Positions 6,137 through 30,581 of a stretch of DNA of 64,000 bases are shown one piece after another; the stretch's first letter is position 1; each line of letters starts with the position of its first letter. The position numbers were made by a program, and so were the translations under genes. The stretch covers positions 1 through 64,000 of the forward strand of contig JANYCZ010000037.1 in assembly GCA_025360015.1 (NCBI GenBank), in the 5' to 3' direction. The notes beneath the pieces were generated by a model. That model made no database searches and was not told the origin of the DNA. It saw nothing but the letters and a program-made list of their open reading frames with translations. Source of the stretch: Verrucomicrobiota bacterium. Lineage in GTDB: Bacteria > Verrucomicrobiota > Verrucomicrobiia > Verrucomicrobiales > Verrucomicrobiaceae.

Positions 6137-6154
6137 ATGGGGTCTTCACCCCAA
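6137..6154 (-). promoter_or_regulatory. Palindromic box, copy 4
   Basis: Core GGGGTCTTCACCCC (6139-6152), perfect GGGGT/ACCCC arms, identical to the core at 15716-15733. It lies 73 nt upstream of the kinase start at 6065 and just after the stop of the preceding gene. Confidence 0.65.
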
Positions 6155-13565: not shown

Positions 13566-14744
13566 TCAGTTCAATGCGGGCTGGGCGGGAATGGAAAAGT
13601 AAAAAGTCGCGCCGCCGTCCACCACGCCGTCCGCCCACACCCGGCCACCGTGCCGGAGAATGATACGCTGGACGTTGGCCAGGCCGATGCCCGTGCCTTC
13701 GAACTTGTCCTGGCTGTGCAGTCGTTGAAACACGCCAAAGAGTTTGGCGGCGTAACTCGGATCAAATCCAGCGCCGTTGTCGCGGACAAAGACCACGGTT
13801 TCAGCCTCGCCGACGCGAGAGCCGCCGATCTCGATGCGAGTTTCAGCACGTTCACTGGTGAACTTCACGGCATTGGAGATCAGATTGACCAGCGCCATGC
13901 GCAGTAGCGCTTGGTTTCCCCACACCGGAGGCAAAGGATGGATCACCCATTCGATGTTTCGTTTGATGGTTTCCTTGTGAAAATCCCCTACCGTTCCCTG
14001 CACCATTTCATCGAGGCTGCATTCCTGCTTTTCCATGCCCGTCTGTCCGATGCGGGAGAAGGCCAGCAGGTCATCGATCAAAGCTCCCATGCGCCGCGCC
14101 GCTTGGGAGACCGTGCTCAGGTGGCGGAGACTGTTCTCAGAGAGGGTGGGCCCGGCGTCTTCCTGCAGCAGCTCCACAAAGCCCATGATATGGCGCAGCG
14201 GCGCACGCAGATCATGGGAGACGGAGTAGCTGAAAGCTTCCAGCTCCCGGTTTGCGGTCTGAAGCTGCGCGGTGCGTTCCGTGACGCGCTGCTCCAGTTC
14301 AGCATTGAGCCGCCGGATCTCATCCTCCGCTTGCTTGCGCTGCGTGATGTCGCGGATGTTGCATTGGATCACCTTGCGGTCGCCGGCTTGATAAACGTTG
14401 CTCACAAACTCCACGGCGATGCGGCGCCCGTCGCGCGTTTCCAGCGGCAGGTTTTCATAGCGGGCATAGCCATATTCCTGAAGGCGTTCCAGCATGGCCT
14501 GATTGGACTCGATGTCCTTGAAGGGACTGAGTTCACCGGCGGTTTTGCCGACCATCTCAGCGTGTGAAAAGCCCAGCAGCTCGATCAGGAAGGGGTTCAC
14601 ATCCGTGATGCGCCCAGTCTCTAGTTCCAGGATTAGAATCCCATCCCGCGCAGCCTCAAACAGCCGCCGGTAGCTGAGCTCTGAGGCACGCAATCTGGAA
14701 TCGAGCTTTGGGTGCTGGGCGGCTGCTTCGTTCGGTGAATTCAT
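13566..14744 (-). CDS. PAS sensor histidine kinase, phytochrome-type core
   Basis: From the ATG at 14744 (MNSPNEAAAQHPKLD) the product is 392 aa. One PAS domain (about 25-145, YRRLFEAARDGILILELETG) is followed by a coiled coil with AELEQRVTERTAQL. The kinase core has SYSVSHDLRAPLRHIMGF (phospho-His), ISNAVKFTS, DNGAGFD and GTGIGLA. No membrane segment or receiver is present. The chosen start overlaps the CheB stop as ATGA and lies 38 nt after the box at 14781-14798; a longer in-frame start would read through that box. The kinase core closely resembles that at 11405-13381, and the PAS resembles that at 23480-25414. Confidence 0.9.
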   Translation of the reverse strand: MNSPNEAAAQHPKLDSRLRASELSYRRLFEAARDGILILELETGRITDVNPFLIELLGFSHAEMVGKTAGELSPFKDIESNQAMLERLQEYGYARYENLPLETRDGRRIAVEFVSNVYQAGDRKVIQCNIRDITQRKQAEDEIRRLNAELEQRVTERTAQLQTANRELEAFSYSVSHDLRAPLRHIMGFVELLQEDAGPTLSENSLRHLSTVSQAARRMGALIDDLLAFSRIGQTGMEKQECSLDEMVQGTVGDFHKETIKRNIEWVIHPLPPVWGNQALLRMALVNLISNAVKFTSERAETRIEIGGSRVGEAETVVFVRDNGAGFDPSYAAKLFGVFQRLHSQDKFEGTGIGLANVQRIILRHGGRVWADGVVDGGATFYFSIPAQPALN

Positions 14745-15454
14745 GGAGGAAGCAAGGTGTCTGCTCTGTTTGCAAGAACCATGGGGTGTACTACCCATTT
14801 GCCCCCCCGAGCCGGAAACCTTGGCTTCACGCCTTGCCAAAATGAATCAACTCGATCAGCATGGGGGGCGATTTCGTTCAGAGGCAGGATGAAATCGACA
14901 GTGCCGGTCGCGATCGAACTCAGCGGCATGCTGAAGTCCTGCGACGTGGGGCGGTCTTGGGCGATGACTTTGCCACCGCGCTCTTTGATGATCTGCACTC
15001 CGAATGAGCCATCACCATCGCCACCGGTGAGCACCACCGCGATGGCATGTTTCCGATAGACGTCCGCCACGGAGGCAAGCAGGGGCTCGGCGGAGGGACG
15101 GGCAAAATGAACCTTTTGCGCATCGTCGGCGGACAGCGCAATGCGGCCGCCCTGGACCACGGACATGTGATGATTGGGCGGTGCGACAAAGACACTCGCG
15201 TGGCACAGGATGTCCCCGGTCTGCGCCTGCCGGACCTTCAACTGCGAGCGGCTGCTCAAGATCTCCGCGAGGAGGCTTTTGTGTGCGGGGGAAAGGTGCA
15301 TCACGATGGCGATGGCCGCCGGGAAGTCCGCCGGCAGGCCGCCCAGGATGACCGACAACGCATGCAAGCCGCCAGCTGAGGCCGCCATGGCGATGACGCT
15401 CTGAGCTGGTACGCAGGGAAGGTCATTCATGAATGATTGGGTGGTTGTGCTCAT
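14741..15454 (-). CDS. CheB-type protein-glutamate methylesterase, catalytic domain only
   Basis: The 237-aa protein is a free-standing CheB esterase domain. The triad residues are visible in AASAGGLHAL (Ser), IAIVMHLSP (His) and LTGGDGDGSFG (Asp). The usual N-terminal receiver is absent. CheB hydrolyses methyl-glutamate on chemoreceptors, but no receptor or CheA lies here, so it may act in another signalling pathway. The last 30 or so residues extend beyond the domain and are read through the palindromic box at 14781-14798. Start and stop both form ATGA overlaps with neighbours (15454 and 14744), so it is translationally coupled to the DUF2934 and kinase genes. An alternative start is Met9 at 15430. 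Confidence 0.88.
   Translation of the reverse strand: MSTTTQSFMNDLPCVPAQSVIAMAASAGGLHALSVILGGLPADFPAAIAIVMHLSPAHKSLLAEILSSRSQLKVRQAQTGDILCHASVFVAPPNHHMSVVQGGRIALSADDAQKVHFARPSAEPLLASVADVYRKHAIAVVLTGGDGDGSFGVQIIKERGGKVIAQDRPTSQDFSMPLSSIATGTVDFILPLNEIAPHADRVDSFWQGVKPRFPARGGKWVVHPMVLANRADTLLPP
14781..14798 (-). promoter_or_regulatory. Palindromic box inside the 3' end of cheB, copy 5
   Basis: ATGGGGTGTACTACCCAT on the plus strand: intact proximal half (ACCCCAT toward the gene) and a 4-base distal half. It lies 38 nt before the kinase start at 14744 but within the CheB reading frame, so it could be an internal promoter or operator. Confidence 0.6.
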
Positions 15455-15715: not shown

Positions 15716-15733
15716 ATGGGGTCTTCACCCCAT
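15716..15733 (-). promoter_or_regulatory. Palindromic box, copy 6 (perfect)
   Basis: CTATGGGGTGAAGACCCCATGG toward the gene: core 15718-15731, with arms extended to ATGGGGT/ACCCCAT. It lies 39 nt before the DUF2934 start. Because it directly follows the end of the Kai operon, it marks the operon boundary. Confidence 0.7.
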
Positions 15734-15738
15734 AGAGT

Positions 15739-16416
15739 TCAGATGATCGTCACCTGCACGCTGCTCTCGATGATGCCCATGGAGATGGCGTAGCGGGTGA
15801 GGCCGGCGGTGTCGTGGATGTTGAGCTTGTCCATCAGGCTCTGGCGGTGTTTTTCGACGGTCTTGACGCTGATGTTGAGTTCATCTGCGGTTTCCTTGTT
15901 GGCCTTGCCTTCTGCAATGAGCTGCAGCACCTCCATCTCGCGCGTGCTGAGGGGAATGACGGCTTTGCCCGGCAGTTCGCCTTGATCGTGGGCCTTCTGC
16001 TTTTGATGATTGCGGCGTTTGGCGATGATGGGGCTGAAAAAATTGTTCCCTTGATGGACGGAGCGGATCGCCTCGGGCAGCACATGGGCGGCGGTTTGTT
16101 TGATGAGATAGCCTGAAGCACCGATGGCCATGACCATGGCGACGTAGGCATCATCGCTGTGGGCGGAGAGGATCAGCACCTTGGTGCCGGGAAAGGCCTG
16201 GAGGATCTGGCGGGTGGCCTCCATGCCGTTGAGCAGCGGCATGGCGATGTCCATGACGACGACGTCCGGACGCACCTTGGCGAAGAGTTCCACGGCTTGG
16301 CGGCCATTCTCAGCTTCGCCGACGACTGTGATGTCGGTCTCCAGATTTAACATGGCGCGCAGGCCTTCGCGGACGATCTGGTGGTCTTCAGCGAGCAGGA
16401 CGTTGATGGAGTTCAT
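15739..16416 (-). CDS. NarL/FixJ-family response regulator (REC + LuxR HTH)
   Basis: The 225-aa transcription factor has an N-terminal receiver (VLLAEDHQIVREGLR, phospho-Asp56 in VVVMDIAMPLLNG, Lys in YLIKQT). A LuxR-type helix-turn-helix lies at about 152-210 (LSTREMEVLQLIAEGKANKE, then VKTVEKHRQSLMDKL). It is the only DNA-binding output in the Kai operon and follows the HisKA_3 kinase gene by 18 nt, so those two are the likely cognate pair. Its receiver resembles the three stand-alone receivers further upstream, which could compete for the same phosphodonors. The target promoters are unknown. Confidence 0.92.
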   Translation of the reverse strand: MNSINVLLAEDHQIVREGLRAMLNLETDITVVGEAENGRQAVELFAKVRPDVVVMDIAMPLLNGMEATRQILQAFPGTKVLILSAHSDDAYVAMVMAIGASGYLIKQTAAHVLPEAIRSVHQGNNFFSPIIAKRRNHQKQKAHDQGELPGKAVIPLSTREMEVLQLIAEGKANKETADELNISVKTVEKHRQSLMDKLNIHDTAGLTRYAISMGIIESSVQVTII

Positions 16417-16434
16417 AAGTCAGTTAAGTTCGGT

Positions 16435-17631
16435 TCAGTTTACAGTTGAGCTGCCTGGCGAAAGGAGAATTTTCACCTCGATTTCCGTGCCGGTGCGGCG
16501 TACGGATTTGACGGTAAGGGTGCCGCCGACATAGGCGGCGCGCTCGCGCATGCCGAGCAGACCCAGGCGGCTGCCGCCTTTGCTGCTGGCCGGTGGACGC
16601 TGCGTGTTGAAGCCGACACCGTCGTCTTTGATGAGCAGTTGCACGGTGTTGCCATGGCGCGCGAGATGCACGCTCACCTGATGGGCGCGGGCGTGTTTAT
16701 GCACGTTTTTCAGCGCCTCTTGAAGGATGCGGTAGAGCGCCAGCTCGGTGTCTGGGGGGAGACGTGCGGTCAATGCCACGCCTGTGAGGGTGACGACTAC
16801 GCCGGTACGCGCAGTGAACTCGGTGCTGGTGGCACGCAGCACGGCGTCCAGCCCCAGCAGTTCCAGCACTCCGGGGCGCAGATTGCGCGTGATGCACTCC
16901 ACTTCTTCAGCCGTGTGGCCGAGCAGATCGCGAAGTTTCAGTGCTTCCTGCTGCGCGGGCCCGTCGTGCGTCGAGAGCTGGTCCGCGAGTGTCTGGCTGC
17001 GCACGAGGATGGCGCAGAGGAGCTGGGTGATGTTGTCGTGCAGTTCGAGCGCCACCTGGCCCCGCTCCGCCTCCTGCACCTGCACGACGCGCTGAGTCAG
17101 GGCGCGCAGCGTTTCCTCAGTCCGGCGTGACTCGGTCAGGTCCGTGACCACCATGCCGATGATCAGATTTTTGCCGCCTTCTTTGGCCAGCGGGCGAATG
17201 GAGATTTGCACCGGCAGTTTGGAGCCGTCACCTGCATGCAGCAGCAGTTGGATTTTGACGCCGGTTTGCGCGGCCACTTTCATGTGGGCACGGAGCGTGG
17301 CCCCGTCTGCAGCGGAGAGAAAGCGGCGGAATGAGCTGCCCGTCACCTGCTCCAGCGGGCATTTGACCATGCGTGCGAAGCACTCGTTGGCGTAGAGAAT
17401 CATCTTCTCCGTCGTCAGCGTCAGCGCGCCCTCGTTCATGGCTTCGATGAGCATGCGGTAGGCGTGCTCGGCACCAGCCAGGGAGAACACCTGGCCGCCT
17501 TGTCTGCCCGGCCCCAGGAGCGCATCCACTTCGCCATGGCGGATGGCGCGCAGTGTTTCCTCCGCCTCGGCCAGACGCAGGCGGAGTGCGACGAGTTCAG
17601 CGGCGGGACCTGGGGGGCGGGCAGTTTTCAT
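16435..17631 (-). CDS. PAS-HisKA_3 sensor histidine kinase (NarX/DegS-type core)
   Basis: The 398-aa soluble kinase has a PAS domain at about 50-170 (EAMNEGALTLTTEKMILYAN). A HisKA_3 dimerisation domain carries VALELHDNITQLLCAIL (phospho-His198), and the HATPase_c has LQEALKNVHKHARA, DDGVGFN and LGLLGMRERA. Such kinases phosphorylate NarL/FixJ regulators, and one is the next gene. The start overlaps the kaiB stop as ATGA, linking kinase translation to KaiB. This gives a plausible KaiB/KaiC to kinase to regulator output chain, by analogy with SasA-RpaA in cyanobacteria. The kinase itself carries no KaiB-like sensor domain. Confidence 0.9.
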   Translation of the reverse strand: MKTARPPGPAAELVALRLRLAEAEETLRAIRHGEVDALLGPGRQGGQVFSLAGAEHAYRMLIEAMNEGALTLTTEKMILYANECFARMVKCPLEQVTGSSFRRFLSAADGATLRAHMKVAAQTGVKIQLLLHAGDGSKLPVQISIRPLAKEGGKNLIIGMVVTDLTESRRTEETLRALTQRVVQVQEAERGQVALELHDNITQLLCAILVRSQTLADQLSTHDGPAQQEALKLRDLLGHTAEEVECITRNLRPGVLELLGLDAVLRATSTEFTARTGVVVTLTGVALTARLPPDTELALYRILQEALKNVHKHARAHQVSVHLARHGNTVQLLIKDDGVGFNTQRPPASSKGGSRLGLLGMRERAAYVGGTLTVKSVRRTGTEIEVKILLSPGSSTVN

Positions 17632-18005
17632 AGCGCGATTTTCACCTTGGTGCTCAGGTTTAATTCGATGACGAGGCCGTTGATGTTGGTCAGGTTGCCG
17701 ATGAACCGGCGCGCTGGCGTGGGCAGTTCGATGATGAGCGTCGGTGTGGCGACGATTTGGTTGCTGCGCGCCAGGGCCGGCTGCTGATAAATATCAATCA
17801 CTTCCAGGGTGCAGTTGTCCTGCAGTTCCGCCGCGCACAGCTCACGCACGCGCAGCAGGGCCTGGCGGGAGCGGGCGGTGGCTCCTGCCACGAACAGACG
17901 TAGAATGAACTGGTCTGCACGTCGGAGAGCCGGGGGCTTCTTTTTGGCAGGCGGTCTGGCACTGCTGTTTTTTGTAACCTTCACAGGCCTGGGTGCGGTT
18001 TTCAT
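17628..18005 (-). CDS. kaiB: KaiB-like protein
   Basis: The 125-aa product carries a full KaiB thioredoxin-like domain at about 32-120: FILRLFVAGATARSRQALLR, then LEVIDIYQQPALARSNQIVA, then TPTLIIELPTPARRFIGNLT. A Lys/Pro/Ala-rich N-terminal extension of about 30 residues precedes it. In cyanobacteria KaiB switches fold and binds the KaiC CI ring. Here it overlaps kaiC upstream and a histidine kinase downstream (ATGA at both ends), so it belongs to a KaiBC module. Whether it fold-switches cannot be read from sequence. Confidence 0.92.
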   Translation of the reverse strand: MKTAPRPVKVTKNSSARPPAKKKPPALRRADQFILRLFVAGATARSRQALLRVRELCAAELQDNCTLEVIDIYQQPALARSNQIVATPTLIIELPTPARRFIGNLTNINGLVIELNLSTKVKIAL

Positions 18006-19777
18006 GCGCTTTTTCTCACGGTTCTGGATTTGTTCTGCGGAATGACCACGACCTTGGCATCTGCCTGGCGCAGAATGCCGGAGGCGGTGCGCTCGGTGGT
18101 GAGCATGAGCGTGCGGGTGCCGACCTGCTCGGCAATGCGCCGCAGTTCCAGCGCTTCGCCTTCATAATCGGAACGCAGATCGCCGATCTGCCGGTCCATC
18201 GCCTTGCGCTTGCGCTCCACTTCGCGCTTGAGCTGGGCGGCCTCCTGCTGGCCGGCCAGCACGGCGGCTTTTTCCAGCGCGTTTTGAGCGGCACGGGCCG
18301 AGCCGGTCAGCACACCGCTGGCGCCGATGTAGGCGTCCACGACATCAATGCCGCGGTCAGAAATCAGGAACTCGCGGATCTGGTTCGAATGCTTCATGCC
18401 GCGCGCCTTGAGCACGTAGAGCACGCGGTTGCGCTCACCGTTGCCTTCAAAGTCCTGAAGCAGGACCCAGGAGTCCATCAGCGAGGACATGGCGGCCTCA
18501 CCCTGCTGGAGCGCATGTCCGCCCTGCGTCAGGCTGGTGAACAGGGAGGTGACCTGGCCGGCCTTGAGATAATCGATGAGCCGCGTCACCATCGCCTTGC
18601 CCTCGGAGTCGGAGCCGGAGTCCATCAGACTGGTGATGGGATCAATGATGACGACGTGCGGCTTGAACGTGGCGATCTCCTTGAACATGGTGGCCAGATG
18701 CATTTCCAGGCCGTAGAGCGAGGGCCTAGCCGAGTGAAATCGCAGCAGTCCCTTGTTTACCAGCGGCTCCAGCCGCAGACCGATGGAATGCATGTTGCGC
18801 ATGATCTGGTCAGGCGATTCCTCGAACGAAAAATACAGCACGCGCTCGCCGCGCCGGGCGGCGGCCTGCGCAAAGTTGCAGGAGATGATGGTCTTCCCGG
18901 TGCCGGGTGTGCCGGTGAGCAGAATGCTGCTGCCGCGAAAAAATCCCTTTCCCCCTAGCATGGCGTCGAGCCGGAGAATGCCGGTGGCGATGCGCTCGCT
19001 CGACACTTTGTGATTCAGCGACAGAGACGTGATCGGCAGCACGCTGATGCCATCATCACCGATGAGAAACGGAAACTCGTTGGTGCCGTGCATGGCCCCG
19101 CGATATTTCACCACGCGCAGATGGCGAGTGGCGATCTGATCATTCACGCGGTGGTCGAGCACGATGACGCAGTCGGACACATACTCCTCCAGACCGTGGC
19201 GCGTGAGCTGTTCGCGCCCGCGCTCGGCGGTGATGACGGCGGTGACGCCCTTGTCCTTGAGCCAGCGAAAGAGCCGGCGCAGCTCGCTGCGCAGGGCGGC
19301 CTCATTGGGCAGATTGGCAAACAGCACTTCCAGCGTGTCGAGCACGACGCGCTTGGCACCGATGGTGTCGATGGCATGACCGAGGCGGACAAAGATTCCC
19401 TCCAGGTCATACTCGCCGCTTTCCTGAAATTCGCTGCGCTCGATGTGTACATAATCCACGAGGATTTTGCCCCGGCGGACCAGACCTTCCAGATCAAAGC
19501 CGAGGGAGGCGACGTTGGACTTCAGCTCTTTTTCCGTTTCCTCGAAGGCCATGAGCACTCCCGGCTCGTCGAACTGCGCGGCACCACGCACCAGAAATTC
19601 GGCGGCCAGCAGCGTCTTGCCGCAGCCTGCGCCACCGCAGACCAGCGTGGGGCGCCCGCGCGGGAGACCGCCGCCGGTGATCTCATCGAGGCCCTGGATG
19701 CCAGTGGGGCACTTGGGCAGCAGCTTGACTGCGGGGGCTTGGCTTTGGCCGTTGTATCGGGCTCTGAGTTGTTTCAT
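18002..19777 (-). CDS. kaiC: KaiC-like double RecA/ATPase domain protein
   Basis: From the ATG at 19777 the product is 591 aa with two KaiC domains. CI has Walker A GGAGCGKT (48-55), Glu79-Glu80 and Walker B ending LDTLE. CII has Walker A GTPGTGKT (289-296), Glu319-Glu320 and Walker B VVIIDP (to 380). The phosphosite region reads EAAMSSLMDS, so Ser431-Ser432 stand where Synechococcus KaiC has Ser431-Thr432, and autokinase activity is plausible. After CII a charged helical tail (about 495-560, EAAQLKREVERKRKAMDRQ) extends beyond cyanobacterial KaiC and should form a coiled coil, as known for KaiC of Rhodobacter-type KaiBC systems. The start forms ATGA with the preceding receiver gene; a 66-codon upstream extension of the frame is rejected. 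Confidence 0.93.
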   Translation of the reverse strand: MKQLRARYNGQSQAPAVKLLPKCPTGIQGLDEITGGGLPRGRPTLVCGGAGCGKTLLAAEFLVRGAAQFDEPGVLMAFEETEKELKSNVASLGFDLEGLVRRGKILVDYVHIERSEFQESGEYDLEGIFVRLGHAIDTIGAKRVVLDTLEVLFANLPNEAALRSELRRLFRWLKDKGVTAVITAERGREQLTRHGLEEYVSDCVIVLDHRVNDQIATRHLRVVKYRGAMHGTNEFPFLIGDDGISVLPITSLSLNHKVSSERIATGILRLDAMLGGKGFFRGSSILLTGTPGTGKTIISCNFAQAAARRGERVLYFSFEESPDQIMRNMHSIGLRLEPLVNKGLLRFHSARPSLYGLEMHLATMFKEIATFKPHVVIIDPITSLMDSGSDSEGKAMVTRLIDYLKAGQVTSLFTSLTQGGHALQQGEAAMSSLMDSWVLLQDFEGNGERNRVLYVLKARGMKHSNQIREFLISDRGIDVVDAYIGASGVLTGSARAAQNALEKAAVLAGQQEAAQLKREVERKRKAMDRQIGDLRSDYEGEALELRRIAEQVGTRTLMLTTERTASGILRQADAKVVVIPQNKSRTVRKSA

Positions 19778-20193
19778 GGGGTTTGCATGGCGGTGTGTTG
19801 GATGGGCTTGAAGTAAACGTGGCCTTGGTAAATCTCGCGGATTGCCCAGGCCAGGACATGCGAGTCGCTTTGCTTGACGAGGTAGCCGGAGGCACCCAGG
19901 GATCTGGCCTGCTGGATGTAGGCAGGCTCGTCGTAGGAGGAGAGTACGAGGATCTTGGTGGAAGCGGGGGTGCACTCACGAATGCGTGTGATGGCGTCCA
20001 GGCCATTGAGCAGCGGCATGGCCAGATCCATGACCACGACATCCGGCGCGAGCTTGCTGGCGAGGGCGACGGCCTGATGCCCGTTCGCCGCTTCACCGAC
20101 CACGTGCATGTCCTGTTCTAAATCGAGCAGGGCACGCAGGCCATTGCGCATGATGGCGTGATCATCCGCGAGCAGGACGGTGATGGGGGTCAT
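19774..20193 (-). CDS. Stand-alone receiver domain protein, third of three
   Basis: The 139-aa protein is a NarL-type receiver without a DNA-binding domain: TVLLADDHAIMRNGLRALL, phospho-Asp56 in VVVMDLAMPLLNG, Ser-Ser in ILVLSSYDEPAY, Lys in YLVKQSD. It ends after about 20 extra residues. I chose 20193 because it forms ATGA with the previous stop and matches the paralogues; the frame is open to 20226. The position just before kaiC suggests that it carries phosphate to or from the Kai module or acts as a phosphate sink. Confidence 0.88.
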   Translation of the reverse strand: MTPITVLLADDHAIMRNGLRALLDLEQDMHVVGEAANGHQAVALASKLAPDVVVMDLAMPLLNGLDAITRIRECTPASTKILVLSSYDEPAYIQQARSLGASGYLVKQSDSHVLAWAIREIYQGHVYFKPIQHTAMQTP

Positions 20194-20606
20194 GGGCATT
20201 GCGGGCTGGGGAATCGGCTGGGACAAAGGAAAGAGGTGCCGTGGTACGCCCGGCGGATGGCGTCCGGCAGCATGAGCGTGTCGGTTTGCTTGACGAGGTA
20301 GCCCGACGCGCCGAGGGCCATGGCCTGTTCGATGTACACGTCGTCATTGTGCGAGGAAAACATCAGCACTTTGGTTTTGACGGTGGCCTGCATGATCTGC
20401 CGCGTGGCTGCCATGCCATTGATGAGCGGCATGGAGACGTCCATGATGACCACGTCCGGGGAGAGCTTGAGAGCCAGGGACACGGCCTGGCGGCCGTTCT
20501 CGGCTTCAGCGATGACCTTGAGGTCCGTCTCCGAGAGCAGGAGTTCGCGCAGACCCTCGCGGATGATGCGGTGGTCTTCAGCCAGCAGGACGGTGATGGG
20601 GCTCAT
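20190..20606 (-). CDS. Stand-alone receiver domain protein, second of three
   Basis: This 138-aa receiver (VLLAEDHRIIREGLRELLLS, phospho-Asp56 in VVIMDVSMPLINGM, Lys in YLVKQTD) has no output domain. It is very close to the next receiver upstream (20603-21019), sharing AEDHRIIREGLRELLLSE and DVVIMDVSMPLING, so the two are recent tandem duplicates. Both ends form ATGA overlaps (20606 and 20193). Confidence 0.9.
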   Translation of the reverse strand: MSPITVLLAEDHRIIREGLRELLLSETDLKVIAEAENGRQAVSLALKLSPDVVIMDVSMPLINGMAATRQIMQATVKTKVLMFSSHNDDVYIEQAMALGASGYLVKQTDTLMLPDAIRRAYHGTSFLCPSRFPSPQCP

Positions 20607-21019
20607 GGGCGGACGGGGAAGGGAAGTTTGCTGGGGCAGATAAAGGAGCTGCCGTGATAGGCACTGCGAACCGCGTCTGGCAGCATGGGAGCGTCGCTGT
20701 GTTTGACGAGGTAGCCCGCCGCGCCGGAGGCCCTGGCCTGCTCGATGTACATGTCGTCACTGTGCGCGGAAAACATCAGTACTTTGGTTTTGGCGTTGGA
20801 CAGCATGATCTGCCGTGCGGCTTCGATGCCATTGATGAGCGGCATGGAGACGTCCATGATGACCACGTCTGGGCAGAGCTTGAGAGCCAGCGACACGGCC
20901 TGGTGGCCGTTCTCGGCTTCGCCGATGACGAGGAGATCGGGCTCCGAGAGGAGCAGCTCGCGCAGCCCTTCGCGGATGATGCGGTGGTCTTCAGCCAGCA
21001 GGATGGTGATGGGGATCAT
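20603..21019 (-). CDS. Stand-alone receiver domain protein, first of three
   Basis: A 138-aa NarL-type receiver without output domain: ITILLAEDHRIIREGLREL, phospho-Asp56 in VVIMDVSMPLINGI, Lys in YLVKHSD. The ATG at 21019 forms ATGA with the stop of the upstream RsbU_N kinase, so that kinase is the natural phosphodonor. The frame is open 30 codons further upstream, but that stretch lies within the kinase gene and is not receiver-like. Confidence 0.9.
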   Translation of the reverse strand: MIPITILLAEDHRIIREGLRELLLSEPDLLVIGEAENGHQAVSLALKLCPDVVIMDVSMPLINGIEAARQIMLSNAKTKVLMFSAHSDDMYIEQARASGAAGYLVKHSDAPMLPDAVRSAYHGSSFICPSKLPFPVRP

Positions 21020-22167
21020 GAGGGTATGGCGGAAGCTTGTGGTTGATGAGCGCTCACAGGAATCTCCACGCGGATGGTGGTGCCCTGGCCGGGGGAGGAG
21101 ACCACGCAAAACGTGCCGCCGATCATCTCGACGCGCTCACGCATGCCGAGCAGTCCCAGGCGGTTGTGCTTTTTCGCACTGCCTTTTCCTTCCACGGCAA
21201 AGCCGCAGCCGTTGTCGATGATCTCCATGCAGATGACGCCGTCGTCATTCTGGATGCTGAGACCCGCATGGCTGGCCTGGGCATGGCGTGCCACATTGGT
21301 CAGCGCCTCTTGGGCGATGCGGTAGAGGACTGTCCGTGTGTTGCCGTCCGCCTGTTCAATGCCGACGAAGGATTTCAAGGCCACGCGGATGCCGGTGTCC
21401 TGCATGTAGCTGGTCATGAAGGACTGCAGCGCAGGGATCAGCCCCAGATCATCCAGCACCGAAGGGCGCAGCTCACGCGCGAAGCGGTGGACAATATCCA
21501 CCGACTGCTCCACCAGCTGCTGCGTGCTGATGATCCTGCTCTGCAGCTCCTTGTTGCTGACCGTGGAATCTGTTTTCAGGGCGGCCAGCCGCACATTGAT
21601 GCCGGTCAGCGTCTGGGCGATGACATCATGCAGCTCACGGCTGATTTTTTTGCGCTCCTCCTCCTGCGCGGACAGGAGCTGGCGTGAGAGCTGCCGCAGC
21701 TCCTCCTGCAATTGGTGCGACTTCTTCAGCAACTGGCTGGACGTCTCCTGGCTGATGCGGAGAGACTCCTCGATGGATCTGCGCTGCACGACCTCCTGTT
21801 TGAGATCCTCCACCGAGGAGGCCAGTTCGCGGGTGCGCTGGCTCAGCGTCTGCACCAGTTGATTGAGGTGGACGTTAGCCTCGCGTGCGCCGCGGTGTGT
21901 TTCCTCGATCGGTGTGATGGCTTCGGCAAAAAACAAACCGGCCCGCCCCATCAATCCATCATTCGTGCTGGAGGAGTAGCCGGGCAGCACCAGGGCAACC
22001 AAGGCGACCTCGTGCATGCGTGCGAGGTCCAGCGTCTCCAGTCCATGGGCGATGGCCTGATGGCCCAGCTCATGGGCTGGCTGCATGCTCGCTGCGGGTC
22101 CTTCCCTCAAGAAGTGCTGCAAAGCCGCGTGATAAAGCCGCGAAAGATCCGTGCGCTTAGGGTTCAT
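21016..22167 (-). CDS. Histidine kinase with N-terminal RsbU_N/KaiA-superfamily domain
   Basis: From the ATG at 22167 the product is 383 aa and soluble. Residues 5-92 match the RsbU N-terminal domain: MQPAHELGHQAIAHGLETLD, then LARMHEVAL, then FFAEAITPIEETHR. RsbU_N and the KaiA C-terminal domain are placed in one fold superfamily. A coiled coil follows (95-165), then HisKA_3 with ISRELHDVIAQTLTGINVR (phospho-His180) and HATPase_c with AQEALTNVARHAQA, DNGCGF and LGLLGMRERV. In RsbU this domain receives a partner protein (RsbT). It overlaps the upstream gene by 11 nt and the downstream receiver by ATGA. The 32 upstream codons of open frame are rejected as part of the previous gene. Confidence 0.85.
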   Translation of the reverse strand: MNPKRTDLSRLYHAALQHFLREGPAASMQPAHELGHQAIAHGLETLDLARMHEVALVALVLPGYSSSTNDGLMGRAGLFFAEAITPIEETHRGAREANVHLNQLVQTLSQRTRELASSVEDLKQEVVQRRSIEESLRISQETSSQLLKKSHQLQEELRQLSRQLLSAQEEERKKISRELHDVIAQTLTGINVRLAALKTDSTVSNKELQSRIISTQQLVEQSVDIVHRFARELRPSVLDDLGLIPALQSFMTSYMQDTGIRVALKSFVGIEQADGNTRTVLYRIAQEALTNVARHAQASHAGLSIQNDDGVICMEIIDNGCGFAVEGKGSAKKHNRLGLLGMRERVEMIGGTFCVVSSPGQGTTIRVEIPVSAHQPQASAIPS

Positions 22168-22879
22168 GGGAAATGCCGATTTCGTGCGCGAGCTGGTTGA
22201 TGTTGGTAACGGCGGACTCCACCAACTGCTGGGTGGTGGCGATTTCCTCCGTGAGGCCCACATGCCGGGTGGCCACCTGCTTTTTCAGCGTCAGCAGCCG
22301 CACATGGATGCCGAGCAAGGTTTGGCCGATGTCGTCGTGGAGCTGGAGACTCATCTTCTTCCGCTCCACCTCATCCGCCGCCATGATCTGGCGTGTCAGG
22401 TCCTTCAGCTGCCGTTCCAGCCGCCGGGATTCCTGTAGAAGCTGGCCCGAGATCCGTTTGCTTCTCTCCAGCTCCGCCTCAGCGGTCATCCGCTGGGTGA
22501 TGCCTTGTTTGAGGTCGCGATGGGAATCTGCCAGATCCAGTGTGCGCTGCCCCAGCCGCTGCTGCATGTGCCGCAAGTCCGCACCGGCTGCTTGGGCGAA
22601 GCGGTGTGTTTTTTCGATGGGCACGATGGCTTCGGTAAAAAACACCTCCGCACGCGCGCTCATTTCATCACGCGCCCCAGGGGAGCAGTCCGGCAGCAGC
22701 AGCCTCGTCAGCGCCTGTTCGTGGAGCTTGGCAAGATCCAGCGTCTCCAGGCGGAGGTTCACGGCTACGGTGCCCAGTGCATGGGCTGGCTGCAGATTTG
22801 CCTGGTGGCCTGGTTCCAAATGGAGGCGCAATGCCGCCAGATACTGGTCTGACAGCAGGCTCAATAAGGATTCACTCAT
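22157..22879 (-). CDS. RsbU_N/KaiA-like domain protein with HisKA_3 but no ATPase domain
   Basis: From the ATG at 22879 the product is 240 aa. Residues 8-95 are an RsbU_N-like domain paralogous to the next gene (LQPAHALGTVAVNLRLETLD, LAKLHEQAL, FFTEAIVPIEKTHR). A coiled coil and a HisKA_3 segment follow, with MSLQLHDDIGQTLLGIHVR (phospho-His181). The chain stops right after it (INQLAHEIGISHEP), so no HATPase_c is present. It might heterodimerise with the complete kinase downstream, be phosphorylated in trans, or be a decayed copy. The frame is open to a TTG at 22948, which would place the box at 22976-22993 29 nt upstream; the true start is uncertain. It is first in the Kai operon. Confidence 0.78.
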   Translation of the reverse strand: MSESLLSLLSDQYLAALRLHLEPGHQANLQPAHALGTVAVNLRLETLDLAKLHEQALTRLLLPDCSPGARDEMSARAEVFFTEAIVPIEKTHRFAQAAGADLRHMQQRLGQRTLDLADSHRDLKQGITQRMTAEAELERSKRISGQLLQESRRLERQLKDLTRQIMAADEVERKKMSLQLHDDIGQTLLGIHVRLLTLKKQVATRHVGLTEEIATTQQLVESAVTNINQLAHEIGISHEP

Positions 22880-22975
22880 GCTTGTTCTGGAAAGCCGGCA
22901 CCCTGGGCATCGAGTCTCGATCTGGGGGGGTGCATAGGCTTTGGTCAACTATCGGGCAGTGGCGGTGGACAGGCT

Positions 22976-22993
22976 ATGGGGTGAAACCCTACC
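22976..22993 (-). promoter_or_regulatory. Palindromic box, copy 7 (imperfect), ahead of the Kai operon
   Basis: ATGGGGTGAAACCCTACC on the plus strand. The proximal half (TTTCACCCCATAG toward the gene) is intact and the distal half is degenerate. It precedes the first gene of the Kai operon by 98 nt (start 22879) or 29 nt (TTG at 22948). Confidence 0.5.
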
Positions 22994-23007
22994 TGCCGAT
23001 ATTGGGG

Positions 23008-23241
23008 TCAGCTCACCGGTTCTTGCTCTGAAGCGGCTGTCGCTGCCGTGAAAATGACTGCAGGTGGCAGCAGGACGGACGCTCCGGTGTAGGCGTTGAT
23101 GGCGCGCTTGTGCGCCAGCTCTGCCTCGGTGTCCTGGCCTGATTTGGCTGCTTCCAAGGCTTGATCCAGCACCCGTCGGGAGGCTTGGACATTCATCTTG
23201 GGGGTGGTTGCGGTAAGGGGGAGGAAGGAAGGCGTACTCAT
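23008..23241 (-). CDS. Small protein of unknown function
   Basis: A 77-aa product from the ATG at 23241 (MSTPSFLPLTATTPKMNVQ). It contains a helical, Ala/Glu/Lys-rich middle (SRRVLDQALEAAKSGQDTEAE) and a hydrophobic Ala-rich end (LLPPAVIFTAATAAS). No family is recognised. The box at 23302-23319 lies 62 nt upstream. A longer frame starts inside that box (23319) and is unlikely. An alternative start is the internal Met at 23196. Confidence 0.45.
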   Translation of the reverse strand: MSTPSFLPLTATTPKMNVQASRRVLDQALEAAKSGQDTEAELAHKRAINAYTGASVLLPPAVIFTAATAASEQEPVS

Positions 23242-23301
23242 GGTCGGTTTGAGCGGGGGGTTGATTTGCCGCCACCCTCGTCCGCCGGACCGCATGCTGC
23301 C

Positions 23302-23319
23302 ATGGGGTGAATACCCCAT
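23302..23319 (-). promoter_or_regulatory. Palindromic box, copy 8 (perfect)
   Basis: CATGGGGTGAATACCCCATA on the plus strand; core 23304-23317 is identical to the copy at 2748-2765, with arms extended to ATGGGGT/ACCCCAT. It lies 62 nt before the leftward small gene and could also serve the divergent kinase gene, which starts at 23429 or 23480. Confidence 0.65.
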
Positions 23320-23479
23320 AGCGTCAGTGGAGGGTCATCATCCATTGTATGGCTATAGCTACAGGAGAAATCCATGAAGCTTTAGAGCAAGCTGGCTGTC
23401 TGGTTAAGCGGTTTGCTTTCAATGTTGAATGCGGTCACCCCATTTTTCGAAGTTTGCAGTTGGAATCAATAAACACCCG

Positions 23480-25414
23480 ATGGAAAAATTTACCGATTCA
23501 GGCAGGCTTGGTTTGACCGGGGAGCAGCGCGCCGTGGAGACACTGCGGCTGTCTGAAGCACGCTACCGTCGGTTGTTTGAAACCGCGCAGGATGGCATCC
23601 TCATCCTCCATGCTGACACGGGTCAGGTGGTGGATGCGAACCCGTTCTTGAAGGAGCTGCTGGGCTACTCACAGGAGGAGTTTCTGGGCCGCAAGCTGTG
23701 GGAGATCGGCCCCTTCAAAGGCGAGGACGCCTCCAAAAGCGCGTTCGCCGAACTGCAGGTCAATGACCGGCTGCATTATCAGGGGCTGTCCTTGGAGACC
23801 AAAGACGGGCGGCGGGTCGAGGTGGAGTTCATCAGCAACGCGTATGTGGCGGACGGGACGCGTTTCATCCAGTGCAACATCCGCGACATGACGGAGCGCA
23901 AGCGTGCGGAGGAGCTGGTGCGTGAGCAGGCGTCAATGCTCGACCATGCGCATGATGCGATCATCGTGCGCGACATCAACACCCGGCAGATCACGTTCTG
24001 GAATCAAGGAGCGGAACGCCTGTATGGCTGGACCTCCAGCGAGGCGGTGGGTCAGAATCTCGGTGAGCTGATCTTCGCCGAGCGGAACGCGCCAGACACA
24101 GTGACCGGGGAGCTGCTGCGCGCTGGCGAATGGCGTGGCGAAGGCCGGCATGTGACCAAAGCAGCCAAAGAGCTGATGGTCAGCAGTCACAGCACACTCG
24201 TGCGTGATGCAAGCGGGATGCCGAAGTCCGCGCTCATCATCAACATCGACATCACGGAGCAGAAGAAGCTGGAGCAGCAGTTTCTGCGTGCCCAGCGCAT
24301 GGAGAGCCTCGGCACACTGGCGGGGGGCATTGCGCATGATCTTAACAACGTGCTCCTCCCGATCATGATGTCCATCGACCTGCTCAAGATGACCAGCAGC
24401 GATGAGCGCACGGGGGAAATTCTGGCCACCATCGAGACCAGCACACGGCGTGGTGCGGACATGGTGCAGCAGATTCTCTCCTTTGCCCGTGGCGTGGAGG
24501 GCCGGCGTGCCATGATCGATCCGCTGGAGATCATCCCGGACATGCAGCACCTCGTGCAGGACACCTTCCCCAAGAATATTCTGTTCCACGCTGAACTGCC
24601 CGCCACCCTGCCGATGTTTCTGGGGGATCACACGCAGGTGCATCAGGTGCTGCTCAATCTCTGCGTCAATGCCCGCGATGCCATGCCCGATGGCGGCACG
24701 CTCACCGTTTCCGCTGACAGTCTGAGGATGGATGAGCATGCTGCGGCGATGCATCCAGACGCAAGGCCCGGCACCTATGTCAGCATCAAAGTCACGGACA
24801 CGGGCACCGGCATCCCGCAGGAGGTGGTGGACAAGATCTTTGATCCCTTCTTCACCACCAAGGAGCTGGGCAAAGGGACGGGGCTGGGTCTGTCCACCGT
24901 CCTCGCCATCATCAAGAGTCATGGCGGCTTCCTCAGTGTCCACAGCAAGCCCGGCCAGGGCACGACATTCACCGTGTGTTTCCCCGTGGGAGTGTCACCC
25001 GAAGACGTCATGCCCGAGGTGCCGGAGGCAATGCATCCGCGTGGACATGGCGAACTGATTCTCATCGTGGACGATGAAGTCGCCGTGCTCTCCATCACCC
25101 AGCAGGTGCTGGAAGCCTACGGCTACGAGGTTTTGATCGCCGCAAACGGAGTGGACGCCCTCTCACTTTACAAGCTGCATCAGACTTCGGTGGCTGCCGT
25201 ACTGACGGACATGATGATGCCTCTGATGGATGGAGCCGCGACCATCCGGGCGCTGCGGCAAATGAAGTCCACCGTCAAGATCATCGCCGCCAGCGGCCTC
25301 GCCAGTGATGGCAGTTCGGCCAGGGCCCTGGGCGTGAAGTTATTTCTACCGAAGCCCTACACCGCACAGACCGTTTTGATGGCACTGAGCGAGGTGCTGA
25401 ACGACGACTGCTAA
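23480..25414 (+). CDS. Hybrid sensor histidine kinase (PAS-PAS-HisKA-HATPase-REC)
   Basis: From the ATG at 23480 (MEKFTDSGRLGL) the product is 644 aa; an in-frame ATG at 23429 would add 17 residues, and neither has a good Shine-Dalgarno. PAS1 (YRRLFETAQDGILILHADTG) resembles the PAS of the kinase at 13566-14744. PAS2 follows (LDHAHDAIIVRDINTRQITF). The kinase core has LAGGIAHDLNNVLLPIMMSI (phospho-His), VNARDAMPDGG, DTGTGIP and GTGLGLS. The C-terminal receiver has LILIVDDEVAV and Asp in AVLTDMMMPLMDG. No membrane segment is seen. It is monocistronic, divergent from the small gene at 23008-23241 and convergent with the DoxX gene. Confidence 0.9.
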   Translation: MEKFTDSGRLGLTGEQRAVETLRLSEARYRRLFETAQDGILILHADTGQVVDANPFLKELLGYSQEEFLGRKLWEIGPFKGEDASKSAFAELQVNDRLHYQGLSLETKDGRRVEVEFISNAYVADGTRFIQCNIRDMTERKRAEELVREQASMLDHAHDAIIVRDINTRQITFWNQGAERLYGWTSSEAVGQNLGELIFAERNAPDTVTGELLRAGEWRGEGRHVTKAAKELMVSSHSTLVRDASGMPKSALIINIDITEQKKLEQQFLRAQRMESLGTLAGGIAHDLNNVLLPIMMSIDLLKMTSSDERTGEILATIETSTRRGADMVQQILSFARGVEGRRAMIDPLEIIPDMQHLVQDTFPKNILFHAELPATLPMFLGDHTQVHQVLLNLCVNARDAMPDGGTLTVSADSLRMDEHAAAMHPDARPGTYVSIKVTDTGTGIPQEVVDKIFDPFFTTKELGKGTGLGLSTVLAIIKSHGGFLSVHSKPGQGTTFTVCFPVGVSPEDVMPEVPEAMHPRGHGELILIVDDEVAVLSITQQVLEAYGYEVLIAANGVDALSLYKLHQTSVAAVLTDMMMPLMDGAATIRALRQMKSTVKIIAASGLASDGSSARALGVKLFLPKPYTAQTVLMALSEVLNDDC

Positions 25415-27860: not shown

Positions 27861-30581
27861 ATGAAAAAGTCCGCACCTCTTCCTGCGCGAAAGCGTACGG
27901 TTAAAACAGCCAAGCCAGCGCCCCCGAAAACTCTGCTGAAGAAAGACGCTGCATGCCCCATCGTTGGCATCGGTGCATCCGCCGGAGGGTTGGAGGCCCT
28001 GGTGCAGCTCCTTGAGCATGTGCCCAAGGACAGCGGCATGGCGTATGTGATCGTGCAGCATCTCGACCCCACGCAGAAAGGCATGATGCCCGAGCTGCTG
28101 CAACGCGCCACGACGATGAAGGTGTTCCAGGTCGCTGACCGCACCAAGGTGCAGCCGAACTGCGTCTATGTGATCCCGCCAAACAGCGACATGTCCGTCC
28201 TGCGCGGTGTGCTGCATCTGCTGGTTCCCGTCGAAATGCGCGGGCTGCGGCTGCCGATTGACTTCTTCTTCCGCTCGCTCGCCGAAGATCAGCGTGAGCA
28301 GAGCATTGGCATCATCCTCTCCGGCATGGGCAGCGATGGCACGCTGGGGCTCCGCGCCATCAAGGAGAAAGCAGGCATCGTGCTGGTGCAGGATCCGGCC
28401 ACGGCCAAGTTTGACGCCATGCCGCGCAGTGTCATCGAAGCGGGGCTGGCGGACATCGTGGCCTTGGCTGAAGAACTGCCGGACAGACTCATCGCCTACC
28501 GGAGGCATCTGCCCCAGCTGGACAAGTCCGAGCTGCATCTGGAGGAAAAGGTGCAAAGCGCGCTGGAAAAGATCGTCATCCTGCTGCGCGGGCACAGCGG
28601 GCATGATTTCACCCTGTACCGCCGCAGCACGCTGTACCGCCGCGTGGAACGCCGCATGGGGATCCATAAGGTGGGCAGGATCAGCGGCTACGTCCGCTAC
28701 TTGCAGGAAAATCCGCAGGAGCTGGGCATCCTCTTCAAAGAGCTGCTCATCGGCGTGACGAATTTTTTCCGCGACAAAAGCGCCTGGGAGCAGCTGGCCA
28801 CCAAGGCGCTGCCGCTGCTGCTCAAAGGCCGGCCCTCAGGCAGCACACTGCGCGCCTGGGTGGCGGGCTGCTCCACCGGTGAGGAGGCGTACTCGCTCGC
28901 CATGGTCTTCAAGGAGACGCTGAAGCACCTCAAGTACACGGACAACATCTCCCTGCAAATCTATGCCACCGATCTGGACAAGGACGCCATCGACAAGGCC
29001 CGCCTCGGGCTCTTTCCCGAGAACATCGTCGCCGATGTATCACCCACGCGCCTGACCCGCTTTTTCAACAAGGAAGAAGGCGGCTACCGGGTGAACAAAG
29101 AGATCCGCTCCATGGTGGTCTTTGCGCCGCAAAACCTCATCATGGACCCGCCGTTCACCAAGCTGGACCTCCTGTGCTGCCGGAACCTGCTGATCTATCT
29201 CACCCCGGAATTGCAGAAGAAGCTGTTCCCACTGTTCCACTACAGCCTGAACCCAGGCGGCGTGCTGTTTCTTGGCAGTGCGGAGAGCATCGGCAGCTTC
29301 ACGCACCTGTTCACCGCGCTGGCGCTCAAGGAACGCCTTTTCCAGCGCAACGAAACCGCCATGCAGGGCAGCCACCTGGACTTCCCCGCCGTGTATTTGC
29401 CAGCCCACGCGAGCCGCCAGGAATCTCAAACGGCAGCGCGTGTTCCAGTGCCCAGCCTGCAAACCCTCGCCGACCAGATGCTGCAGCAGCGCTACGCGCC
29501 GCCGGCGGTGCTGGTGAACGAGAATGGCGACATCCTCTACGTCAGCGGCAAAACGGGCAAATTTTTGGAACCAGCCGCCGGCAAGGCCAACTGGAATGTC
29601 ATTGCCATGGCCCGTGACGGCCTGCGCAACGAACTCTCCAGCGCGATGCAAAAAGTCATCCGCAAAAAAGGCACGGTCACTGTCCGTGGCATCAAACTCG
29701 CCCCCCCGGCAGACACCCGAGCCGTGGACATCCTGGTGCAGGCCATTGAGGCACCGAAAGAACTCTTCGGCATGCTCCTCATCGTGTTTTCTGAAGCCGT
29801 CGTCCCTCCCGAGCCACCCCCTGACCGTGGGAGGGGCAAAATTTCGGTCAGCAGCGGCGCCCGGCAGCGCGAGCTGCAAAATGAACTCAAGCATGCCCGC
29901 GATGAAGTGCAGGCCGGACGCGAGGAAATGCAGACCTCGCAGGAAGAGCTCAAGTCCATGAACGAGGAGCTGCAATCGACCAACGAGGAACTGCAATCGA
30001 CCAACGAGGAGCTCATGACTTCGAAGGAGGAGATGCAGTCGCTCAATGAAGAGCTGCAAACCGTCAATGCTGAGCTGCAGGCCAAGCTGGACGAACTCTC
30101 CGGAACGAACAACGACATGAAGAACCTGCTCAACAGCACGGACATCGCCACCGTGTTTCTGGACAACGACCTGCAGGTGCGCCGCTTCACCTTGCAGGCC
30201 AAGACGATCATCAAGTTCATCGCCACGGACGTGGGCCGTCCCATCACCGACCTCGCCTCCGACCTCCTCTACCCCGGGCTGGTCAAAGACGCCCATGAGG
30301 TGCTGCGCACGCTCATTTTCAGCGAGCGCTCCATCGCCACTGAGAATGGGCGCTGGTTCACCGTGCGCATCATGCCCTACCGCACCATGGACAATCGCAT
30401 CGACGGCGTTGTCATCACCTTTGCCGACATCACCGCAGCGAAGAAAATCGAGGCCGAGCTGCGTGAGCAGCACCGCAAGCTGTCCAAGCACTCCGTCGAG
30501 CAGGGGCGCGCGCTGGACAAAGCCCTCGGCAAACCCAAGGAGCGCCGCGTGGCCGCTCCAGCGCGGAAATCCAAATCATGA
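27861..30581 (+). CDS. CheB-CheR-coiled coil-PAS fusion protein
   Basis: The 906-aa protein joins four modules. A CheB methylesterase (about 33-215) has the triad in GIGASAGGLEAL, VQHLDP and GMGSDGTLG. A CheR methyltransferase (about 230-500) has an SAM site in LRAWVAGCSTGEEAYSLAM and the motif CRNLLIYL. A long coiled coil of EELxSTN-type repeats (about 670-755) follows, then a PAS domain (about 755-870). Such CheB/CheR hybrids occur outside chemotaxis operons, often next to kinases, and may modify or scaffold signalling proteins. The stop overlaps the next kinase gene as ATGA. No receptor, CheA or CheW gene is in the window. Confidence 0.92.
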   Translation: MKKSAPLPARKRTVKTAKPAPPKTLLKKDAACPIVGIGASAGGLEALVQLLEHVPKDSGMAYVIVQHLDPTQKGMMPELLQRATTMKVFQVADRTKVQPNCVYVIPPNSDMSVLRGVLHLLVPVEMRGLRLPIDFFFRSLAEDQREQSIGIILSGMGSDGTLGLRAIKEKAGIVLVQDPATAKFDAMPRSVIEAGLADIVALAEELPDRLIAYRRHLPQLDKSELHLEEKVQSALEKIVILLRGHSGHDFTLYRRSTLYRRVERRMGIHKVGRISGYVRYLQENPQELGILFKELLIGVTNFFRDKSAWEQLATKALPLLLKGRPSGSTLRAWVAGCSTGEEAYSLAMVFKETLKHLKYTDNISLQIYATDLDKDAIDKARLGLFPENIVADVSPTRLTRFFNKEEGGYRVNKEIRSMVVFAPQNLIMDPPFTKLDLLCCRNLLIYLTPELQKKLFPLFHYSLNPGGVLFLGSAESIGSFTHLFTALALKERLFQRNETAMQGSHLDFPAVYLPAHASRQESQTAARVPVPSLQTLADQMLQQRYAPPAVLVNENGDILYVSGKTGKFLEPAAGKANWNVIAMARDGLRNELSSAMQKVIRKKGTVTVRGIKLAPPADTRAVDILVQAIEAPKELFGMLLIVFSEAVVPPEPPPDRGRGKISVSSGARQRELQNELKHARDEVQAGREEMQTSQEELKSMNEELQSTNEELQSTNEELMTSKEEMQSLNEELQTVNAELQAKLDELSGTNNDMKNLLNSTDIATVFLDNDLQVRRFTLQAKTIIKFIATDVGRPITDLASDLLYPGLVKDAHEVLRTLIFSERSIATENGRWFTVRIMPYRTMDNRIDGVVITFADITAAKKIEAELREQHRKLSKHSVEQGRALDKALGKPKERRVAAPARKSKS
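29961..30014 (+). repeat. 21-bp tandem repeat encoding heptad coil
   Basis: Two 21-bp units differing at one base (29961-29981 and 29982-30002) and a partial third encode NEELQST heptads in the coiled coil of the CheB-CheR protein. Leu at heptad core positions explains the repeat. Confidence 0.7.

Follow-up and report, generated by a model that had tools for sequence, protein, structure and literature searches.

The 64,000-nucleotide stretch of Verrucomicrobiota DNA analysed here (assembly GCA_025360015.1, contig JANYCZ010000037.1, positions 1 to 64,000 of the forward strand), hereafter the window, carries a nine-gene operon on its minus strand in which kaiC and kaiB lie among genes for two-component signalling. 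As read from sequence, the core of the operon is a pair of histidine kinases, HKx and HK, at its start together with a response regulator, RR, at its end; a cassette consisting of kaiC, kaiB and a PAS kinase gene lies in between, and the Kai genes are not core. With slightly better than even confidence, we interpret the operon as a two-component stress switch into which a KaiBC timer has been plugged. The source genome comprises 6.6 Mb in 79 contigs, and its closest named relatives belong to the Verrucomicrobia and include a Prosthecobacter metagenome-assembled genome.

HK (21016–22167, on the minus strand like all nine genes, 383 aa) is a complete histidine kinase by Pfam, with HisKA_3 (1.3e-13) and HATPase_c (2e-14) domains, and its structure model has an RsbU_N-like domain at the N-terminus. 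HKx (22157–22879, 240 aa) is composed, according to Pfam, alignment and its structure model, of an RsbU_N/KaiA-C-like domain, a coiled coil and the dimerization and histidine phosphotransfer (DHp) part of HisKA_3 (2.6e-7), and the protein stops after the DHp helices without an ATP-binding domain. HKx is 46% identical to HK and is, on sequence grounds, a headless paralogue of it. Its most likely start is the ATG at 22879, giving 240 residues; a start at 22993, as first proposed, is ruled out by a stop codon, and the furthest upstream start possible is a TTG at 22948, immediately after a stop. The original prediction regarded both proteins as KaiA/RsbU_N-like. The link in fold has some support from structure, and their identity has been corrected, both being HisKA_3 kinases by Pfam. 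They score 20.1 and 20.3 bits against Pfam RsbU_N (PF08673), both under the curated cut-off of 25.5, so the domain is not filed as an RsbU_N member by sequence, and the whole genome yields just two RsbU_N matches, both sub-threshold. Unlike KaiA with its fused (pseudo)receiver, neither gene has a receiver by Pfam. RR (15739–16416, 225 aa) is a NarL/LuxR-type response regulator with receiver and GerE domains, and a NarL-type two-component make-up of HisKA_3–HATPase_c kinase and receiver–GerE regulator is thus present by Pfam. By identity comparison, RR is apparently the orthologue of the regulator encoded after the kinase pair at non-Kai loci. Another HisKA_3 kinase, with a PAS-like sensor by eye, is encoded about 8 kb away at 30578–32311 on the plus strand, and its coil and DHp region are closely related to those of HK; kinases similar to it sit 4–10 kb from the pair in genomes G021, G039, G040, G042 and G047.

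Headless copies of the kinase recur across Verrucomicrobia. Comparison of the window HKx with three relatives gives dN of 0.16–0.23 and dS of 0.73–0.79, indicating purifying selection. The candidate explanation that HKx is a decaying pseudogene was rejected, since dN is well under dS in the tested pairs and 49 aligned HKx copies are not cut by a stretch end. Among these 49 rows, which include near-copies, the phospho-histidine position holds histidine 19 times, glutamine 23 times, asparagine three times, arginine twice and lysine once, and one row has a gap there; 29 of 48 scorable copies therefore lack the histidine, which is present in 63 of 63 full kinases. Because most copies lack the histidine, HKx would be regulatory rather than phosphate-carrying. 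A different role, in which HK phosphorylates the HKx histidine in trans and the phosphate then passes to the stand-alone receivers, as in an HPt-like phosphocarrier, would suit the window HKx, which keeps the histidine (LHDD), as do all nine members of the closest group to the window, where the extra receivers occur. An obligatory phosphocarrier has to be marked down, however, by the 30 rows in which the histidine is gone, and we regard this role as quite unlikely. Two HKx copies have decayed in different ways: one (L136, 5220–5636, in G070) lacks the coil and the histidine helix, and the other (L140, 6505–7005, in G150) lacks most of the RsbU_N region.

KaiC (18002–19777, 591 aa) matches Pfam KaiC at 1.6e-111 in two stretches corresponding to two ATPase domains. 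Its nearest solved proteins are Rhodobacter sphaeroides KaiC (8DBA, 626 bits) and variants of it including 8FWI, the rest scoring at most 371 bits. The Ser-Ser site is conserved, AMSSLMD being aligned with Rhodobacter GLSSLMD, and the alignment of the long C-terminal tail reaches residue 536 of the 568 of 8DBA, into its coiled coil. KaiB (17628–18005, 125 aa) scores 74 bits in Pfam against a cut-off of 27 (8e-21), with 8fwj as the best Protein Data Bank (PDB) entry. Rhodobacter KaiC autophosphorylates without KaiA (PMC10076222), and the window KaiC is, judging by its sequence, of the same KaiA-independent, double-serine, long-tailed KaiC2 type. The third gene of the cassette codes for a PAS-HisKA_3-HATPase_c kinase (16435–17631, 398 aa; Pfam). 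KaiB was found in 47 of 384 genomes of a class sample and in 12 of 68 of a family sample, and all KaiB loci of both samples were considered. Their KaiC proteins fall into one type at least 75% identical to the window KaiC and others at most 66% identical. Of the 15 contigs with the window type, 14 also encode a PAS-HisKA_3 kinase, and the fifteenth (L144) stops inside kaiC. Two short pieces of L132 have extreme branches in the KaiC tree and were not relied on. The source genome has a second Kai locus, made up of kaiC, kaiB and kaiB followed by the gene of a receiver-bearing protein (G000:C31, about 76454–78910; L076, 6455–8910), and its KaiC is 59% identical to that of the window. G047 seems to have a KaiC fragment beside the receivers of its pair (L083, G047:C57, 3267–4049) and a complete KaiC cassette on another contig (L080). 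L139 of G201 has an RsbU_N kinase, a regulator, KaiB and a PAS kinase, with no KaiC within its 19-kb stretch.

The core and the cassette differ in their relationships. The window RR shares 88% and 86% identity with its counterparts at the non-Kai loci of G027 and G042, 91% with that of the Kai-linked G037 of the same genus, 71% with that of G022 and 63–69% with those of six Kai loci outside the genus (L041, L050, G070, G078, G122 and G150). HK identities follow the RR pattern; KaiC stays at 78–92% throughout. When two candidate trees of nine taxa were compared, HK and RR together rejected the tree of KaiC and the PAS kinase in the approximately unbiased (AU) test (p 5e-58, effectively 0), and KaiC and the PAS kinase together rejected the tree of HK and RR (p 0.004). 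These identity patterns and conflicting joint trees indicate that the kinase pair and the regulator are a resident switch and that kaiC, kaiB and the PAS kinase gene form a cassette with its own history. Kai linkage mapped on the kinase tree takes 8 changes, with gain indistinguishable from loss.

Profiles of the pair match 67 of the 68 family genomes at 1e-20, mainly through the kinase parts, and manual reading found a protein bearing the RsbU_N-like domain in 24 of the 68. The HKx profile has matches in 59 of the 384 genomes of the class sample, 33 of them with the N-terminal domain covered by manual count; at most seven candidates per genome were scored, so that copies can be missed. All 20 loci obtained by a profile search of contigs beyond the class lie in Verrucomicrobia or in bins titled just 'bacterium'. 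The commonest locus order is HKx-HK-regulator or HK-regulator, without Kai: a Kai gene lies within 7 kb in 10 of 63 distinct full RsbU_N kinases and not in 51, two being cut by a contig end and some of the non-Kai stretches extending just about 3.5 kb. Linkage was seen with one KaiC type. An RsbU_N protein is encoded within 7 kb on 6 of the 15 KaiB-first contigs with the window-type KaiC, the window included, as against none of 46 with another KaiC. Three more KaiB loci have no scorable KaiC, and one of them (G201) has an RsbU_N kinase; with this locus and the contig-end pieces of G022, G047 and G122 added, RsbU_N linkage is seen in 10 of 16 genomes. The G305 and G229 loci are contig ends assigned to neither group, and the kinase adjoining kaiC in G229 looks to be of PAS type by its visible end. 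L041 and L050 share the arrangement of the window and are excluded from these counts because they were found through HKx. Class genomes having both an RsbU_N kinase and KaiB have them side by side in 7 of 16 (manual count). The cassette usually lies between HK and RR, and linkage in this order recurs in several families. Thus, the expectation that linkage with Kai would be conserved in relatives holds for this KaiC type. A window-type cassette without an RsbU_N protein occurs in G354, G348 and G226, which have other HisKA_3 kinases (PAS-like by eye), and in G145, which has none.

The fold of the N-terminal domain bears on whether the pair could act on KaiC in the place of KaiA. AlphaFold models were built for the HK domain (67 sequences, pLDDT 91) and for the whole HKx (35 sequences, pLDDT 86, pTM 0.46). 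Foldseek alone gave no significant match for the HK domain model, with nothing below E 0.7; the best hit (E 0.71) was an RsbR-type stressosome domain, and KaiA-C chains reached a probability of up to 0.77. In a second look with VIA, KaiA C-terminal domains took ranks 1–5, 8 and 12 with the HK domain model (Z 9.5–8.1) and ranks 1–5 and 9 with the HKx model (Z 10.1–8.6), and RsbU scored 7.6 (1w53) and 7.1 (2j70) and RsbR-type domains 7.2–8.7. A PDB profile search gave RsbU at E 0.13–0.25 plus two chance chains. The proposed relationship to RsbU_N and KaiA-C is supported by the VIA lists, both of which KaiA-C tops (Z 9.5 and 10.1, with 7.6 for RsbU 1w53), and not by Foldseek alone. That the modelled domain shares the four-helix KaiA-C/RsbU fold is therefore supported but not proven, since chance alone can give helical bundles Z values of this size. 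If these domains bound the KaiC tail and raised autophosphorylation, the operon would encode a KaiABC-like oscillator with a kinase-borne KaiA. The VIA ranking of both models is consistent with such a substitute, and so is the full kinase gene directly before kaiC in L041, L050, G070, G078, G122 and G150. Moreover, KaiA3, which has a receiver and a KaiA-C-like domain, acts as KaiA in Synechocystis and sits in kai clusters also outside cyanobacteria (PMC11372060). However, both proteins are kinases; Z scores of 9–10 are modest for a helical bundle, designed or unrelated proteins scoring 8–9.3 in the same lists; most loci of the pair are without linked Kai; and G348, G354 and G226 carry the same cassette beside other HisKA_3 kinases. 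The idea is further weakened because the KaiC is nearest to the Rhodobacter protein, a type that needs no KaiA (PMC10076222). For these reasons, the original proposal that the RsbU_N proteins take the place of KaiA was set aside, and a KaiA substitute is considered very unlikely.

Visual inspection revealed a palindrome, ATGGGGTNNNNACCCCAT, at each end of the operon. The upstream copy, ATGGGGTGAATACCCCAT (23302–23319), separates the operon from a divergent gene at 23429–25414 (probable PAS hybrid kinase by eye), and the downstream copy, ATGGGGTCTTCACCCCAT (15716–15733), lies between the regulator gene and the next gene, which codes for a CheB-type methylesterase (14741–15454). Allowing one mismatch at most, the 6.6-Mb genome has 10 sites, five of them inside the window, and the reversed control gives none. 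Among 72 module loci, 37 have a site (at most 2 mismatches) in the 600 bp preceding the first domain, and 28 of the 37 sites lie at 52–179 bp. Loci that include a headless gene have such a site in 34 of 53 cases and the other loci in 3 of 19, the background being 0.075 per 600 bp over all these loci. The mean number of sites is 7.2 in family genomes that have RsbU_N proteins (24 of 24 non-zero) and 1.5 in the other family genomes (22 of 44 non-zero; p 1e-7), the reversed control yielding one site in each of four family genomes. When the genomes are sorted by the presence of the regulator (at least 59% identity), sites occur in 23 of 24 with and in 23 of 44 without it (p 3e-6). A 7-2-7 dyad suits NarL-type regulators. 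Therefore, on sequence grounds the palindrome ATGGGGTGWWCACCCCAT is probably the operator of RR.

The palindrome could instead be a REP-like repeat or an RNA hairpin unrelated to the regulator. Sites 3' of the regulator gene (window 15716; L057, 7060) and sites in genomes without RsbU_N proteins would be expected of such an element. But just 10 sites occur in 6.6 Mb, and the clustering at 52–179 bp before the first domain of the module is seen across families. In addition, the two middle bases are both A or T at 136 of 152 distinct sites, although the centre was unconstrained in the search, and a T-rich flank is present in only 6 of the 152, which argues against terminators. We judge a repeat or hairpin rather unlikely.

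The genes near the sites give some indication of what RR may control. Sites in G000, G021, G027 and G011 have 63 distinct candidate frames nearby, of which 20 were chosen by eye for Pfam. Among those scanned, UspA and L,D-transpeptidase (YkuD) each turned up in three genomes and a ferritin/Dps protein in G021, along with PRC-BON, ice-binding proteins, sensor kinases and CheB. The originally suggested timing or stress-signalling module is thus in keeping with some of the genes beside the shared palindrome. Three further sites in the window have one mismatch. That at 2748–2765 lies beside a gene at 2241–2711 (minus strand), which has no Pfam match of its own at 1e-5 and is 58% identical to the ferritin/Dps-type protein of G021; that at 6137–6154 lies beside a PAS-HisKA-receiver hybrid kinase gene at 3951–6065 (minus strand); and that at 1119–1136 came from the genome site search. 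Half of the ten genomic sites (1119, 2748, 6137, 15716 and 23302) thus cluster here among several sensor-kinase genes, and this region may be a stress-signalling island. Small frames with a similar ALEA/alanine-rich pattern by eye lie near two of the palindrome sites, at 22950–23260 (minus strand) in the window and at 1579–1797 (plus strand) in L207, and may encode small regulon proteins.

Several observations weigh against a resident stress switch with a timer inserted into it. The order differs in G183 and G201, where the RsbU_N kinase and RR lie beside the cassette and not around it. At two Kai-linked loci HKx is incomplete, being shortened to 138 aa in G070 and lacking most of the RsbU_N region in G150, so that an intact HKx is not strictly required there. 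The AU tests of single genes are marginal (PAS kinase 0.039; KaiC 0.048, with a Kishino-Hasegawa value of 0.060). In 35 of the 72 module loci, including L056–L060, which are relatives of the window locus, there is no site in the upstream 600 bp, one of the 35 (L055) having no upstream sequence. The 22 family genomes that have the palindrome without an RsbU_N protein include seven with 4–11 sites (up to 11 in G034), and genome size and kinship confound the co-occurrence. Acetate kinase, ATP synthase beta, an amidase, a sugar hydrolase, an AI-2E transporter and the ice-binding proteins are likewise among the neighbours scanned, and the stress regulon is a lead, since its genes were picked by nearness and by eye without a gene caller or background set. 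Finally, as the cassette has its own kinase, the linkage could be mere co-transcription: the cassette would have been captured in a stress operon because a timer is useful under stress, and the PAS kinase–KaiBC and HK/HKx–RR systems would work without crosstalk at the protein level. The separate histories of cassette and switch fit such co-regulation, and in G145, where the pair is on another contig, a palindrome with one mismatch stands 6 bp before the KaiC open frame of a cassette that lacks the pair. On the other hand, one RR, of the stress-switch type, is seen for both kinases in the window, L041, L050, G070, G078, G122 and G150, and the same-order linkage recurs across several families. 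Co-regulation alone is accordingly a serious alternative that we nevertheless hold to be unlikely.

The layout of the operon was confirmed by re-reading of the open reading frames, which bore out the nine consecutive minus-strand genes of the original prediction, six ATGA overlaps (HK/R1, R1/R2, R2/R3, R3/kaiC, kaiC/kaiB and kaiB/PAS kinase), the 11-nt overlap of HKx and HK (22157–22167) and the 18-nt gap between the last two genes. KaiC, KaiB, the three stand-alone receivers, the PAS-HisKA_3 kinase and the receiver-GerE regulator were likewise recovered by Pfam. The receivers, all assigned by Pfam, are R1 (20603–21019, 138 aa), which keeps the D of 'IMD' and the K of 'LVK', R2 (20190–20606, 138 aa) and R3 (19774–20193, 139 aa).

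These features suggest a plausible mechanism for the stress switch with its inserted timer. HKx would pair with HK through the N-terminal domain, the coiled coil and the DHp helices to form a heterodimer in which HKx may be a regulatory partner and not a phosphate carrier. As in Rhodobacter, ATP/ADP and KaiB may drive KaiC through a cycle of Ser-Ser phosphorylation that needs no KaiA, and the state of KaiC may be relayed to the PAS kinase, the HK/HKx pair or both. The two kinases, PAS kinase and HK, would feed one RR, and the stress programme would be gated by an hourglass timer, with the three extra receivers competing for or buffering phosphate. RR would bind the palindrome ATGGGGTGWWCACCCCAT, control its own operon and turn on stress genes.

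RsbU_N kinases, KaiC2 hourglasses and KaiA3 are already known; no description of their combination, of the headless partner or of the palindrome was found in searches of the open-licence literature. The operon resembles the KaiBC hourglass of Rhodobacter sphaeroides (PMC10076222) in its KaiC2-type protein (best PDB entries 8DBA/8FWI), double-serine site, extended C-terminal tail and KaiB, with no KaiA among the nine genes by Pfam. It differs in its link to the RsbU_N kinase pair and regulator and in the end of the KaiC tail past residue 552, and the timer here is predicted from genes. RsbU_N-histidine kinases (PMC12143880) likewise have an RsbU_N-like domain joined through a coiled coil to a histidine kinase; an NreB-like kinase is named in that paper, which refers to Heinz et al. 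2022 on stressosome operons. Here, in contrast, the kinase is in tandem with a headless paralogue and joined to Kai, and no RsbT is found among the nine genes by Pfam, which was applied to the locus only, the genome not being searched for RsbT. The KaiA C-terminal fold, known from KaiA and KaiA3 (PMC11372060), is the closest solved fold to the N-terminal domain in the VIA lists, but the domain here has no fused receiver, is fused to a kinase and is mostly without linked Kai. HKx recalls pseudo-histidine kinases such as DivL (PMC9430884) as a kinase relative that probably regulates rather than phosphorylates; it differs in lacking the entire ATPase domain and in being a tandem paralogue of its presumed partner. 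A bolder hypothesis is that Verrucomicrobia possess an undescribed general stress response composed of a heterodimeric RsbU_N kinase with one headless subunit, a NarL-type regulator and the operator ATGGGGTGWWCACCCCAT, and that a KaiC-KaiB-PAS kinase cassette spreading horizontally has come to time it in several lineages, the KaiA-like N-terminal fold physically reading KaiC; in this full form it seems improbable.

The inputs and outputs of Kai systems outside cyanobacteria are described as mainly unclear (PMC5520375). In this operon, the sequence suggests an output, namely a single regulator with a single palindrome and a set of candidate genes, so that what a KaiA-less timer controls becomes a testable question. 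Kai genes inside what looks like a stress-switch operon suggest that a stress programme may be tuned by an internal timer. The conserved headless partner of the kinase, and the occurrence next to kaiC of a kinase with a KaiA-like fold, bear on the possible recruitment of KaiA from stress-signalling domains.

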